DNA from: an uncultured Alphaproteobacteria bacterium
GTDB taxonomy: Bacteria; Pseudomonadota; Alphaproteobacteria; Rs-D84
Reading direction: 5' to 3'
Assembly: GCA_947054455.1 (NCBI GenBank)
Contig: CAMRWN010000002.1
Coordinates: 120,104 to 184,103 of the forward strand
Length of the DNA: 64,000 bases
The position numbers and the translations under genes are program-made. This document shows positions 14,978-53,492 of the stretch, in pieces. Under the pieces are notes generated by a model. That model had not been told where the DNA came from and searched no databases. It saw only the letters and a program-made list of their open reading frames with translations. How positions within the stretch are numbered: position 1 is the stretch's first letter; each line of letters begins with the position of its first letter.

Positions 14978-15067
14978 GGAGACGTGGCAGAGTGGTCGAA
15001 TGCGCGCGACTCGAAATCGTGTATACCGGCAACGGTATCAAGGGTTCGAATCCCTTCGTCTCCGCCA
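14978..15067 (+). tRNA. tRNA-Ser (anticodon CGA)
   Basis: ggagacg...cgtctcc acceptor, anticodon loop CTCGAAA, long variable arm, ggttcgaatcc T-arm, CCA encoded. Confidence 0.95.
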
Positions 15068-15348
15068 GGAATATAGAGCATCCCACGGTAAACCGTCGGG
15101 ATGTTTCTTTTGCCCCGGAATCCGGGGATTTTTATCAGCAACGGTACCAGTGTATGTTCTCTGTCGCGGCCAATTGCACCAAAATCCGTCGCGCAGCATA
15201 CCTTGCCCAAAACATCGATGCCAGTTTATATTGCTTTTTATCGTAATTTGTGGTATAATCTCTAGCAAGAACAAAGGCGACATTTGTCGCCGTTTTTTAT
15301 TGTCCCGCCGCCCGCGGGGCTTTTTTTTATAACACAGGAAAAAATAAT

Positions 15349-16365
15349 ATGGCTACAAATTGGGGAGATGTTACTTGGAATGAATATGGGGAATTAGTAT
15401 TGGATATCTATAAACAACCTCCGGAAACAAAAGATGATACAACTAATAAACCGAAACATACATATAAAGAAATAGATTGTGGTGGTGAATGTGGCGGGTG
15501 TGTTGCGTTGGTTGTTGATGGCAAGGTTGTGTCTGGGCCGCCGTTCCACCCGAACTGTAAATGTTCTTTGTCGGGAAAAGATATTGAGGAAGCGCCTGAA
15601 CATGAATCTAATTTAGGTAATCCGGTTGGACGCGACAGAAATTCTGAACCAAGGGACGTTAAATGGTTGAAAGATGCTCTAAATAAACTTGGGTTTTATG
15701 ATCCCGATACCAGAGCCGGTGAAACACCAGATGATTTAAATGAATATCCTAACCAGAATTTGTTTGATGCGATTAATAAATTCCAACGCGAACATGGATT
15801 GCCCGAACGTGGCATTGTGAAACCCGGTTATCAAACCGAAGCCAAAATAAATAATGAATTGCAACATCAAACAAAAGAACCAAAAGCAGATTTTGAATAC
15901 AATGGCTCAACCTTTAAAGGACCAGTCAATGCAAAAGATAACCAATATGCAGTCTTTGATGGCAAAACATTGGCTGTTTATGATGGTGGTGAAAAAGTTG
16001 CTGAATTTGCCGGGGTGTCCGGCAAGCCAGGATATCAATCTCCAGAATATCAAAATAAAACAGATACTGGGCCGATTCCACAAGGAACATATGTTGCGAG
16101 AAAAAAAGATTTTCAAAATAGAGATGATTATGGCCCTATAAAAAAATATACTTCGTGGCCTGGTGGTGAACATGGTTGGGGAAAACATAGAGTATGGTTG
16201 GAACCCTCTAAAGAAACAAATACGTTTGGTCGAGGTGGTTTCAGTATTCATGGTGGCGACGAGCCCGGTTCTGCGGGTTGTATTGATCTAACAAATGAAA
16301 TGCCAGGATTTGCAACTTGGTTCAAAAATAATGGAAAAGATTTAATTATTAAAGTAAAATACTAA
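15349..16365 (+). CDS. Modular protein: phage minor-head-type 'CxxC...HPNCKC' motif + peptidoglycan-binding-like region + Tlde1/DUF2778-like domain; putative PG-targeting effector
   Basis: CGGECGGCVALVVDGKVVSGPPFHPNCKCSL; VKWLKDALNKLGFYDP...AINKFQREHGL (PG_binding_1-like); FDGKTLAVYDGGEKVAEFAGVSGKPGY...TGPIPQGTYVARKK...RVWLEPSKETNTFGRGGFSIHGGDEPGSAGCIDL. Confidence 0.75.
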   Translation: MATNWGDVTWNEYGELVLDIYKQPPETKDDTTNKPKHTYKEIDCGGECGGCVALVVDGKVVSGPPFHPNCKCSLSGKDIEEAPEHESNLGNPVGRDRNSEPRDVKWLKDALNKLGFYDPDTRAGETPDDLNEYPNQNLFDAINKFQREHGLPERGIVKPGYQTEAKINNELQHQTKEPKADFEYNGSTFKGPVNAKDNQYAVFDGKTLAVYDGGEKVAEFAGVSGKPGYQSPEYQNKTDTGPIPQGTYVARKKDFQNRDDYGPIKKYTSWPGGEHGWGKHRVWLEPSKETNTFGRGGFSIHGGDEPGSAGCIDLTNEMPGFATWFKNNGKDLIIKVKY

Positions 16366-16381
16366 AAAACAAAGGCACAAA

Positions 16382-16708
16382 ATGAAAAAAACATTAAACA
16401 TAACAAGTTATGTCGCGACAATATGTTTGTTTTGTGCCTTGTATGTTTTTATATTTGATATTGCGTGTATAGGTAGAATTTCAAAATTTAATCATATTTG
16501 GGCAAATGCATGTCAGTTTGATATTGATGGTACGCATTTGAATTGTATGATAAATAATGATATTACATGCATTGTATTGCTGTTGCCTATCTTAGCTGTT
16601 ATGTCGTTTCGTTTGGCAAAGATATATCGCGAACGCGTCCTGTTGGCTCCGATTTTGGGCTTTTTACTGTTTGTTTTGTCGATTATAACATATTGGGGCC
16701 TTGTGTAA
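16382..16708 (+). CDS. Small multi-TM membrane protein; candidate immunity partner of upstream effector
   Basis: 108 aa with three hydrophobic segments; starts 17 nt after the effector stop codon, same strand. Confidence 0.6.
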   Translation: MKKTLNITSYVATICLFCALYVFIFDIACIGRISKFNHIWANACQFDIDGTHLNCMINNDITCIVLLLPILAVMSFRLAKIYRERVLLAPILGFLLFVLSIITYWGLV

Positions 16709-51554: not shown

Positions 51555-51962
51555 ATGAGAATAGGTTTTTTCGTATTTTTTATGGCAGTTATAAACTTTT
51601 CGAGTGGTTTTGCCGCATCGTTTCAGACAGAAATTGTATTATGTGATGAAGTGTACGAAAAACAGTCCAAAAAATCCGATTCTACCATATCCATTATACA
51701 ATCTTTAAACGAGTATACCGACTGTTATCAAAAAATTGTCTTTAAGATTATTGAAACGGAATACACGCAAAATGCGGATAAAATGAAACAAAATTTCATA
51801 GCATATATAAATACGGCCGGTGAAATGACCGGTTTCATTGACCGACCGGATTCCTGCTATCCGCAATGCGGAACGACTGCTGGTATAAATGCTGCGACTG
51901 CGCGTAATCATGCCGCAAAGCAGTATTTGAATTTGATTCTGAATAGTAGGACAGAAATGTAA
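51555..51962 (+). CDS. Small secreted/periplasmic protein; candidate immunity partner
   Basis: MRIGFFVFFMAVINFSSGFA signal peptide; 135 aa; 3' end abuts the convergent lysozyme-fusion ORF. Confidence 0.6.
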   Translation: MRIGFFVFFMAVINFSSGFAASFQTEIVLCDEVYEKQSKKSDSTISIIQSLNEYTDCYQKIVFKIIETEYTQNADKMKQNFIAYINTAGEMTGFIDRPDSCYPQCGTTAGINAATARNHAAKQYLNLILNSRTEM

Positions 51963-51965
51963 AAT

Positions 51966-53138
51966 TTATCTATACCCACTATAATCTGCATTTTGAAACA
52001 ATCGCCATTCTGCATCCCGACGTCTATCTAAATCTCCATGGTTTCTAAATGCTCTCCAAGCGGATTCTGGTGTTGGATATGTATTACTGCGATAATTTTT
52101 ATCATTTATATATTTACGAATAGTTGATTGATATAGCCCCCTATTCACATTTGCTGGCGCACCAGAACCTGGACCAATATTGAACACCAATGCAACAAGC
52201 GCATCATATTGATGTTGAGGCATTGCCGCTAAAACATCATGATTTATTTGTTTAGCTATTGTGTCATATGTAGACTGTAAATCTCGATGGAATAACTCTG
52301 TCGCCTCTTTTTCGGTCAAACCTTTACTAAAATCGTCACCAGTTTTTATCAAGTGTCCATAACCAATTGTCGCACCAGGCGGTAGGGGGGCACCGGCCGA
52401 AACAGGCAGCCCAGTTGCATCATTGTAGATAACGTGTTTTCCATCTATTTTCACACATCCTTCTAATGATTTCAGCCATTCTATTCCTTTGTCGCTTATT
52501 TTCATATTTCTGATATCCTTTTCTATTTCATTCTTTTTTTCTTTTGATGAATACGGCTTGCTACTGATAGTACGACCGTCAGTGCCAATAACGTCCTCTG
52601 TGATACTGCAGCGACAATTGGGATGTAGCGGGATTTGCGGGATATCATCTTCGTTGTCATATATTTCACCATCACGTAATGCGCATTCTTCACAGGTGTC
52701 ATCCTCTTCTTCGGCATGCCAGCGCCACACACGACGCGTTTTGCCGTTTGGTATATTGTCATTCTCCGGCAAATCAAGACTATAAAACTCTAACTGTTTA
52801 TTTTCGATACGGCCATCCGGCAGCAGAACGCGAACGTCTATGTTTTCTTCCAATTCTACATAGTCTTCAACATCTATCTGCTGACCGGATTCTTCATATT
52901 CTGCCTCGGCCTGTGCGATGGCTTCCCCAAGTTCGGCATCCAGCTTCGCCTGAGCTGAATTAAACTGTTGCAATGTCATATCGTATTCCGGCGCAGCCAT
53001 GCGTCCCGTGGCATCTGTTTTTGCCATGCCGGGATACAGCATTTTCATATACCGCTCCACCATGGCATACGTCTTGCTGTTTTTATCCATATATGCGGGC
53101 GACGACATTAGTTGTCGTAAAAATTCTGGTGTTTTCAT
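51966..53138 (-). CDS. Modular protein: phage minor-head-type 'CxxC...HPNCRC' motif + GH24 phage-type lysozyme domain
   Basis: TCEECALRDGEIYDNEDDIPQIPLHPNCRCSIT; C-term GIEWLKSLEGCVKIDGKHVIYNDATGLPVSAGAPLPPGATIGYGHLIKTGD...LFHRDLQSTYDTIAKQI...QYDALVALVFNIG. Start trimmed to MKTPEFLRQL. Confidence 0.83.
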   Translation of the reverse strand: MKTPEFLRQLMSSPAYMDKNSKTYAMVERYMKMLYPGMAKTDATGRMAAPEYDMTLQQFNSAQAKLDAELGEAIAQAEAEYEESGQQIDVEDYVELEENIDVRVLLPDGRIENKQLEFYSLDLPENDNIPNGKTRRVWRWHAEEEDDTCEECALRDGEIYDNEDDIPQIPLHPNCRCSITEDVIGTDGRTISSKPYSSKEKKNEIEKDIRNMKISDKGIEWLKSLEGCVKIDGKHVIYNDATGLPVSAGAPLPPGATIGYGHLIKTGDDFSKGLTEKEATELFHRDLQSTYDTIAKQINHDVLAAMPQHQYDALVALVFNIGPGSGAPANVNRGLYQSTIRKYINDKNYRSNTYPTPESAWRAFRNHGDLDRRRDAEWRLFQNADYSGYR

Positions 53139-53199
53139 TTGTGATTCCTTTAGGTAAATAAAAAAAAGATCCCACAGAACTGCGGGGGATGAGTTATAT

Positions 53200-53221
53200 T
53201 CCTGGCGGAGACGAAGGGATT
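53200..53221 (-). repeat. Truncated tRNA-Ser 3' end, scar/att-like duplicate
   Basis: tcctggcggagacgaagggatt, 22 bp identical to 53399-53420 within tRNA-Ser(GGA), followed by unrelated sequence. Confidence 0.85.
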
Positions 53222-53401
53222 GTATATTCCCACCGCTGTTGCGGCGGGCCCCTTTCGCTACGTAAGGCTCAAACTTCGTCATTGAACTGACTCGTTTTCG
53301 CCAACTGACGCCCCGAACCCTGCAACTTGCGTTGCGAATGTTTCGTCCACGCTTCTTCCGGGATAAAAAAAAATCGCCCCATCTGGGGCATTTTTTTATC
53401 C

Positions 53402-53492
53402 TGGCGGAGACGAAGGGATTCGAACCCTTGATACCGTTGCCGGTATACTACATTTCCAATGTAGCGCACTAGACCAACTATGCGACGTCTCC
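53402..53492 (-). tRNA. tRNA-Ser (anticodon GGA)
   Basis: Reverse complement ggagacgtcgcatagttggtctagtgcgctacattggaaatgtagtataccggcaacggtatcaagggttcgaatcccttcgtctccgcca; anticodon GGA. Confidence 0.95.

Follow-up and report, generated by a model that had tools for sequence, protein, structure and literature searches.

The window analysed here is a 64,000-nucleotide stretch of DNA from Candidatus Enterousia (Rs-D84, Alphaproteobacteria), a strongly genome-reduced gut bacterium; the assembly of this genome comprises 728 kb and is 86% complete. Its features of interest are listed in Table 1, where positions prefixed C1 lie elsewhere in the same genome. The gene under study encodes a fusion protein ending in a GH24 lysozyme, and a 135-aa ORF converges on it tail to tail, with 3 nt between the two stop codons. 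An earlier sequence-only reading had placed both ORFs at these coordinates and had described an HPNCRC-type motif and a complete phage-type lysozyme in one ORF; both statements held, the latter by Pfam, PHROG and the catalytic triad. The start codon of the fusion, ATG 53138, was conserved among relatives in the N-domain alignment; the ORF list also gives an in-frame ATG further upstream, at 53282.

Table 1. Positions of the fusion genes, their putative immunity genes and the associated leaders, tRNAs and repeats
Feature	Position	Strand	Details
Putative fusion toxin gene	51966..53138	(-)	390 aa: N-domain (residues 1-210), linker, GH24 lysozyme; Pfam/PHROG and alignment
MuF-type Cys/His motif C149xxC152 ... 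H172PNC175RC177	52608..52694	(-)	Partial Phage_Mu_F match, residues 134-179
GH24 lysozyme domain (about residues 216-390)	51969..52493	(-)	PF00959, 4.9e-15
Putative immunity protein	51555..51962	(+)	135-aa member of partner family P1; helical model, four conserved Cys and export features
Second terminator-like hairpin, remaining	53171..53186	(-)	Leader of the window GH24 fusion
22-nt direct repeat, second copy	53200..53221		Just upstream of the GH24 fusion, between tRNA and toxin
22-nt direct repeat, tRNA-Ser 3' end copy (att-like)	53399..53420		100% identical
tRNA-Ser (GGA)	53402..53492	(-)	ARAGORN; 264 nt upstream of the GH24 fusion, same strand
tRNA-Ser (CGA)	14978..15067	(+)	ARAGORN; 282 nt upstream of the second toxin, same strand
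Leader of second toxin	15242..15347	(+)	Extended -10 promoter, two terminator-like hairpins; covariance model R1, 103.9 bits
Second putative toxin	15349..16365	(+)	Short N-part with HPNCKC, PG_binding_1, Tlde1 tail
Putative immunity protein of second toxin	16382..16708	(+)	108 aa, multi-TM, family P0
25-nt tRNA-Ser repeat	C1:48898-48922 and tRNA-Ser end near C1:51066		Two-gene cassette, ~2.2 kb

The N-terminal part of the fusion carries TCEEC from residue 148 and HPNCRC from residue 172, and all four cysteines and His172 were kept in the alignment of relatives (A1). The Pfam model Phage_Mu_F matched at 2.3e-5 and 25.5 bits, below its cut-off of 29.6, and only over the last half of the model; one relative (L096) scored 31.2, just over the cut-off. 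PHROG searches gave an endolysin match (1.9e-21) and a minor head protein match (8.7e-10), and the SPP1 gp7-like match in NCBIfam was below cut-off. A chance motif without profile-level homology, named beforehand as a possible refutation, was not borne out, as profile-level homology is present. Structural matches of the AlphaFold model (pLDDT 76) were muramidases such as 6et6, 9kbs and 6h9d; viral minor capsid proteins matched over ~45-75 columns only, none with E <0.01.

In the tail, the Phage_lysozyme match spans residues 256-377, and the GH24 catalytic pattern EG...YxD...TIGYGH is present. E226, D240 and T257 were invariant in all 12 aligned relatives and correspond to the catalytic E-D-T of GH24 lysozymes such as T4 lysozyme. 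A lysozyme lacking its catalytic Glu would have been a second refutation, and E226 is kept. Comparison of the fold with muramidases gave TM values up to 0.77 by target length. By its conserved residues and modelled fold, the window lysozyme is not degenerate.

The second window fusion has a PG_binding_1 module and a Tlde1/YkuD tail (Pfam PF10908 1.1e-9, PF03734 5.9e-7, PF01471 3.1e-6). The claim that two window loci share the motif and carry different wall-attacking tails held; the two loci also have the same type of 5' leader. A common N-domain of about 200 aa, proposed as a check, failed: the two proteins share the Cys/His motif only (26% over 73 aa, pairwise E 3e-5). The true N-domain paralogue of the window GH24 fusion lies at C1:49555-50766, with 53% identity over 200 aa and a GH108 tail. 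Two further places in this genome hold orphan tail-plus-partner cassettes. At C1:8118, only HPNCRC and a linker remnant precede a different GH24 with a secreted neighbour, an arrangement that resembles an orphan cassette, and C1:47921 is an orphan Tlde1 tail with a TM partner.

The N-domain was carried by 25 of the 59 genomes searched, 18 of the 35 Enterousia genomes among them. Public genomes, when scanned, yielded 78 loci; matches to the whole N-domain came from Enterousia or other gut Alphaproteobacteria, and weak matches outside these bacteria reached the motif only. The C-domains, clustered with the linker trimmed because the common linker otherwise fused nearly everything, fell into GH24 (26), Tlde1 (18), GH108 (15), M23 (1) and truncated GH24 (1) families.

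Tails and partner genes were compared over 57 gene pairs, and the overall family test used about 60 loci. Partner families P0 (13 loci) and P5, both multi-TM, were found only with Tlde1 tails, P2 and P3 only with GH24, and P4, P6 and P7, among the compared loci, only beside GH108. Pairs of loci with the same partner agreed in tail type in 168 of 175 cases (shuffled mean 60, maximum 93), a value reached in 0 of 2000 shuffles. The shuffle ignores the relatedness of loci, but the same link between tail and partner was seen in several species and, in the case of P1, in a second family within the order. Every partner family showed a hydrophobic N-terminus or TM segments and the toxins did not, as judged by a hydropathy measure rather than a trained predictor; the fusions carry no signal peptide. 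Polymorphic toxins are recognised by one N-domain with exchanged tails (here GH24, GH108, Tlde1 and M23), by a linked partner gene that changes with the toxin domain and by orphan toxin-immunity cassettes; each of these was found, with no binding data for the partners. A further criterion, a known trafficking route for the N-terminal part, finds no support from T6SS or phage routes and only a conserved T4SS as a weakly inferred candidate. The survey of genomes for the N-domain with variable C-domains bore out the prediction on about 60 loci, and the proposal of a polymorphic toxin-like family is supported by comparative evidence, toxicity being inferred.

The 135-aa ORF had been called signal-peptide-bearing, and this held as a hydrophobic N-terminus by the hydropathy measure. 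Its family, P1, is the convergent neighbour of seven GH24 fusions and one GH108 fusion. The hydrophobic N-terminus is common to P1 proteins, as are four cysteines that never vary; the fold is predicted to be helical (model pLDDT 79), and no PDB match to it was found at E<0.001. Membership of a known lysozyme-inhibitor family was rejected, with no Pfam or NCBIfam match, and the best PHROG match was weak (5e-4), to a family of unknown function. P1 was present in 9 of 59 genomes, all within the order Rs-D84, including a genome from another family of the order with a GH108 fusion and convergent P1 (G041) and one in which two stacked P1 genes flank a GH108 remnant (G029). GH24-linked and GH108-linked P1 separated across one branch of the tree (support 91/87), a split that is tentative because of long branches. 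We assign no promoter to the immunity gene, because a local promoter scan gave 6 matches where 6.6 were expected by chance. The proposed role as a periplasmic immunity protein or inhibitor is supported by comparative evidence, and immunity itself is inferred.

Another partner family appears to derive from a toxin domain. P6 proteins show homology to GH108 tails (blastp E-values down to 5e-13) but start with a signal peptide. They are missing the EG[GD]Y segment, the presumed site of the catalytic Glu, which all 16 aligned GH108 tails keep. The homology and the missing segment together suggest immunity by an inactive copy. We infer from sequence that P6 is an immunity protein derived from the GH108 toxin domain, as an inactive, secreted copy. 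P6 genes were seen at L033:421-963(-), L034:2181-2735(+), L022, L024, L130 and L203, and at L203 the P6 gene follows GH24.

A conserved leader lies upstream of nearly all fusions. It consists, in order, of TTGATTTTT, an extended -10 (TGnTATAAT), a hairpin with T-run, a GC-rich hairpin with T-run and a ribosome site, and the first hairpin shows compensatory changes. A covariance model found the leader in 34 of 35 Enterousia genomes and in 0 of 24 other genomes. Copies in this genome lie at 15242-15347(+), C1:50767-50872, C1:8058-8163 and C1:26008-26099, of which those at 15242 and C1:50767 belong to the training alignment of the model (R1). In the window GH24 copy, both the usual promoter and the first hairpin are gone, and the gene may be poorly expressed or silent. 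Relatives also have the leader in front of GH24 and GH108 genes that stand alone. Because lysozymes without the N-domain share this leader, the N-domain cannot be an export tag for all of these enzymes. The leader may mark an accessory-gene regulon under attenuation, a possibility in which both attenuation and coordinated control are inferred.

The leader of relatives was also observed before DNA methyltransferases, a conserved 216-aa protein and tail-fibre-like proteins (L176-L245). The tail-fibre-like proteins are at L209, L218-L222, L224, L225, L227, L229, L231-L233, L235, L240 and L242, and also at L038:5344-6009(-). Some have Mtd_N and some have weak PHROG tail-protein matches, in genomes mostly without phage genes, and their genes are often convergent with sugar- or surface-biosynthesis genes.

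Toxin loci are linked to tRNA genes. A same-strand tRNA ended within 700 nt upstream (<=700 nt) at 24 of 43 loci, compared with ~2% expected; an other-strand tRNA was found at one of the 43 and a downstream tRNA at none. These loci are not independent, because they are related. Several tRNAs are used, namely three Ser isoacceptors, His, Glu, Gln and Thr. The C1 toxin and its partner are bracketed by a tRNA-Ser end and a 25-nt exact copy of it, 2168 bp apart, and just past them stands an orphan Tlde1 tail whose partner is a membrane protein. No integrase was found within this cassette; a tyrosine recombinase is encoded at C1:256397, and its role is not shown.

Phage genes were searched for in these genomes. 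The terminase phrog_2 was missing in 32 of 35 Enterousia genomes, including this one, the portal PF04860 in all 40 genomes tested (T7-type portals were outside this search) and the sheath PF04984 in 57 of 59, neither carrier being this genome. No relatives of the fusion were found in phage, plasmid or viral collections. The wording "head-type" used for the motif in the sequence-only reading therefore needs correction and is not to be read as phage-borne, given the missing terminase and portal. Membership of the MuF phage toxins was likewise not accepted, since the phage context was looked for and not found. The window toxin may nonetheless work similarly to them, which we regard as possible.

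Delivery by a T6SS or other contractile system was rejected: VipB was found in 0 of 53 Rs-D84 genomes, and the sheath in only 2 of 59 genomes. VirB4 was present in 47 and VirD4 in 52 of 53 Rs-D84 genomes, and VirB8, VirB9 and VirB10 are encoded in this genome at a distance from virB4 and virD4. The T4SS genes are scattered over C1:81633-86349, C1:229610-231874 and C1:248444-250855. A SPOR domain was seen at the end of the VirB9-like protein, and an ASH-like region in the 789-aa VirB10-like protein. This conserved, dispersed T4SS is the best candidate exporter, an assignment that could fall either way and is only weakly inferred, by analogy with bactericidal X-T4SSs (PMC6536674). The sole basis of the link is its co-occurrence in nearly all genomes, toxin-bearing or not.

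We consider it likely (probability about 0.78) that the locus is a polymorphic, peptidoglycan-targeting toxin-immunity cassette of Candidatus Enterousia. The comparisons show the architecture, the exchange of tails, their match with the partners, the partners' export features, the conserved catalytic residues and the tRNA linkage, and killing and inhibition are inferred. In this view, the toxin would be a cytosolic protein whose constant N-domain, with its terminal MuF-type Cys/His motif, probably serves recognition by the export machine, and whose exchangeable C-domain, here a GH24 muramidase, would cut the wall. The toxin would be transferred into the periplasm of a neighbouring cell, where peptidoglycan would be degraded; P1, a secreted helical protein, would block the matching muramidase in the producer's periplasm. 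Cassettes would arrive and be exchanged at tRNA 3' ends, and orphan tails and stacked immunity genes would be what remains of such events. Against this reading stand the lack of activity, inhibition or secretion data, the pairing of P1 with both GH24 and GH108, the promoter and hairpin lost from the window copy, the stand-alone lysozymes behind the same leader, the T4SS link by co-occurrence alone and the shuffle's disregard of relatedness.

The rival that survives best, though unlikely, is that the fusions descend from phage virion proteins, domesticated or in decay (a minor head protein joined to an injection lysozyme), or, in a variant that shares this low standing, are cargo of an unrecognised phage-like particle; in both versions they would have been left at tRNA integration sites, with the small neighbours as unrelated passengers. 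The MuF motif, the PHROG head and endolysin matches and the tail-fibre-like genes behind the same leader speak for it, as do tRNA 3' ends, which are classic phage integration sites, and polyvalent phage proteins that carry wall enzymes aiding injection (PMC5512222). Against it are the missing phage genes (T7-type portals not covered), the lack of any relative in the phage, plasmid or viral collections, and the tail-specific exported partners and orphan tail-partner cassettes, which are unexpected for virion parts.

It is very unlikely that the enzymes are house-keeping or machine-assembly muramidases that open the producer's own wall for a T4SS or for growth, with the partners as local regulators. 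VirB-type systems commonly use a dedicated muramidase, and muralytic enzymes are paired here with periplasmic proteins; however, the presence is patchy (about half of Enterousia), tail chemistry changes, several loci occur per genome, partner genes are found orphaned and stacked, and the enzymes lack a signal peptide. Also very unlikely are toxin-antitoxin-like addiction cassettes that maintain themselves at tRNA sites without cell-to-cell transfer: tRNA repeats do flank a two-gene cassette and the two genes are tightly paired, but the N-domain is conserved though catalysis does not need it, and an un-exported toxin without a signal peptide would miss its substrate, which is periplasmic.

The toxin-immunity cassette was compared with known systems. 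In the MuF polymorphic toxins of temperate phages (PMC5576092, PMC3482391), a MuF-type motif is likewise followed by a variable C-terminal toxin and then a small ORF. All MuF toxins reported come from phages or prophages, and most of their toxin domains are of nuclease, metallopeptidase, ART or RelA-like type (Jamet et al. 2017, PMC5576092; Zhang et al. 2012, PMC3482391); neither peptidoglycan nor lysozyme is mentioned in the first of these papers. The Enterousia family differs in the absence of phage context, its peptidoglycan-attacking tails, its exported partners and its half MuF profile. The X-Tfe/X-Tfi pairs of the Xanthomonadales-type T4SS (PMC6536674, PMC10933484) likewise comprise wall hydrolases with cognate immunity, dispersed genes and a chromosomal T4SS. 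X-Tfes carry a C-terminal XVIPCD, whereas the common module of the Enterousia toxins is N-terminal; the latter end in the catalytic domain, and their C-termini differ by tail type, with no common C-terminal recognition domain. Unlike those of the X-T4SS, the Enterousia T4SS genes are scattered, and VirB9 has a SPOR domain. Tlde1, known from the Tlde1/Tldi1 T6SS pairs (PMC9638812), is also among the swapped tails here, as in the second window toxin, but the order has no T6SS, the tail is fused behind MuF-type/PG_binding_1 modules and the partner is a small multi-TM protein. CDI/Rhs-type toxins similarly have a constant N-part, a tail swapped together with its cognate partner and orphan cassettes downstream; the Enterousia toxins differ from them in having no filament or Rhs repeats, a swap junction after HPNCRC and cassettes behind tRNAs.

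What is new here is the placement of toxin genes just behind tRNAs, the common promoter with two terminator-like hairpins for most toxin genes, and a partner family that looks like an inactive, secreted copy of GH108. If the cassette reading is correct, it would show a MuF-type module working away from phages, would provide new candidate muramidase inhibitors (P1, P2, P3, P4, P6 and P7) and would be a clear example of immunity that arose from the toxin's own fold. The gut genomes of Rs-D84 are mostly <1 Mb, and a paper that does not mention secretion systems (PMC12306168) proposes that these bacteria live as obligate symbionts or parasites on other cells. That genomes of ~0.8-1 Mb carry a large exchangeable set of wall toxins with matched partners suggests a central place for bacterial contacts in their life.

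A bolder reading, no more than possible, is that Enterousia has a regulon of mobile attack-plus-protection cassettes behind one promoter/double-terminator leader type. Such a regulon might contain wall toxins with their inhibitors, tail-fibre-like proteins by surface-sugar genes, and DNA methyltransferases with their neighbours. The dispersed T4SS might inject the wall toxins into neighbouring bacteria, perhaps for feeding, and one immunity family might have arisen from the toxin's GH108 by loss of the catalytic Glu and gain of a signal peptide.

A further arrangement was observed at L181 and L207:234-836(+), where the leader is followed by the gene of a 201-aa protein that is endolysin-like at its front and carries a C-terminal MuF motif scoring above the Pfam cut-off, the reverse of the domain order in the window fusion.
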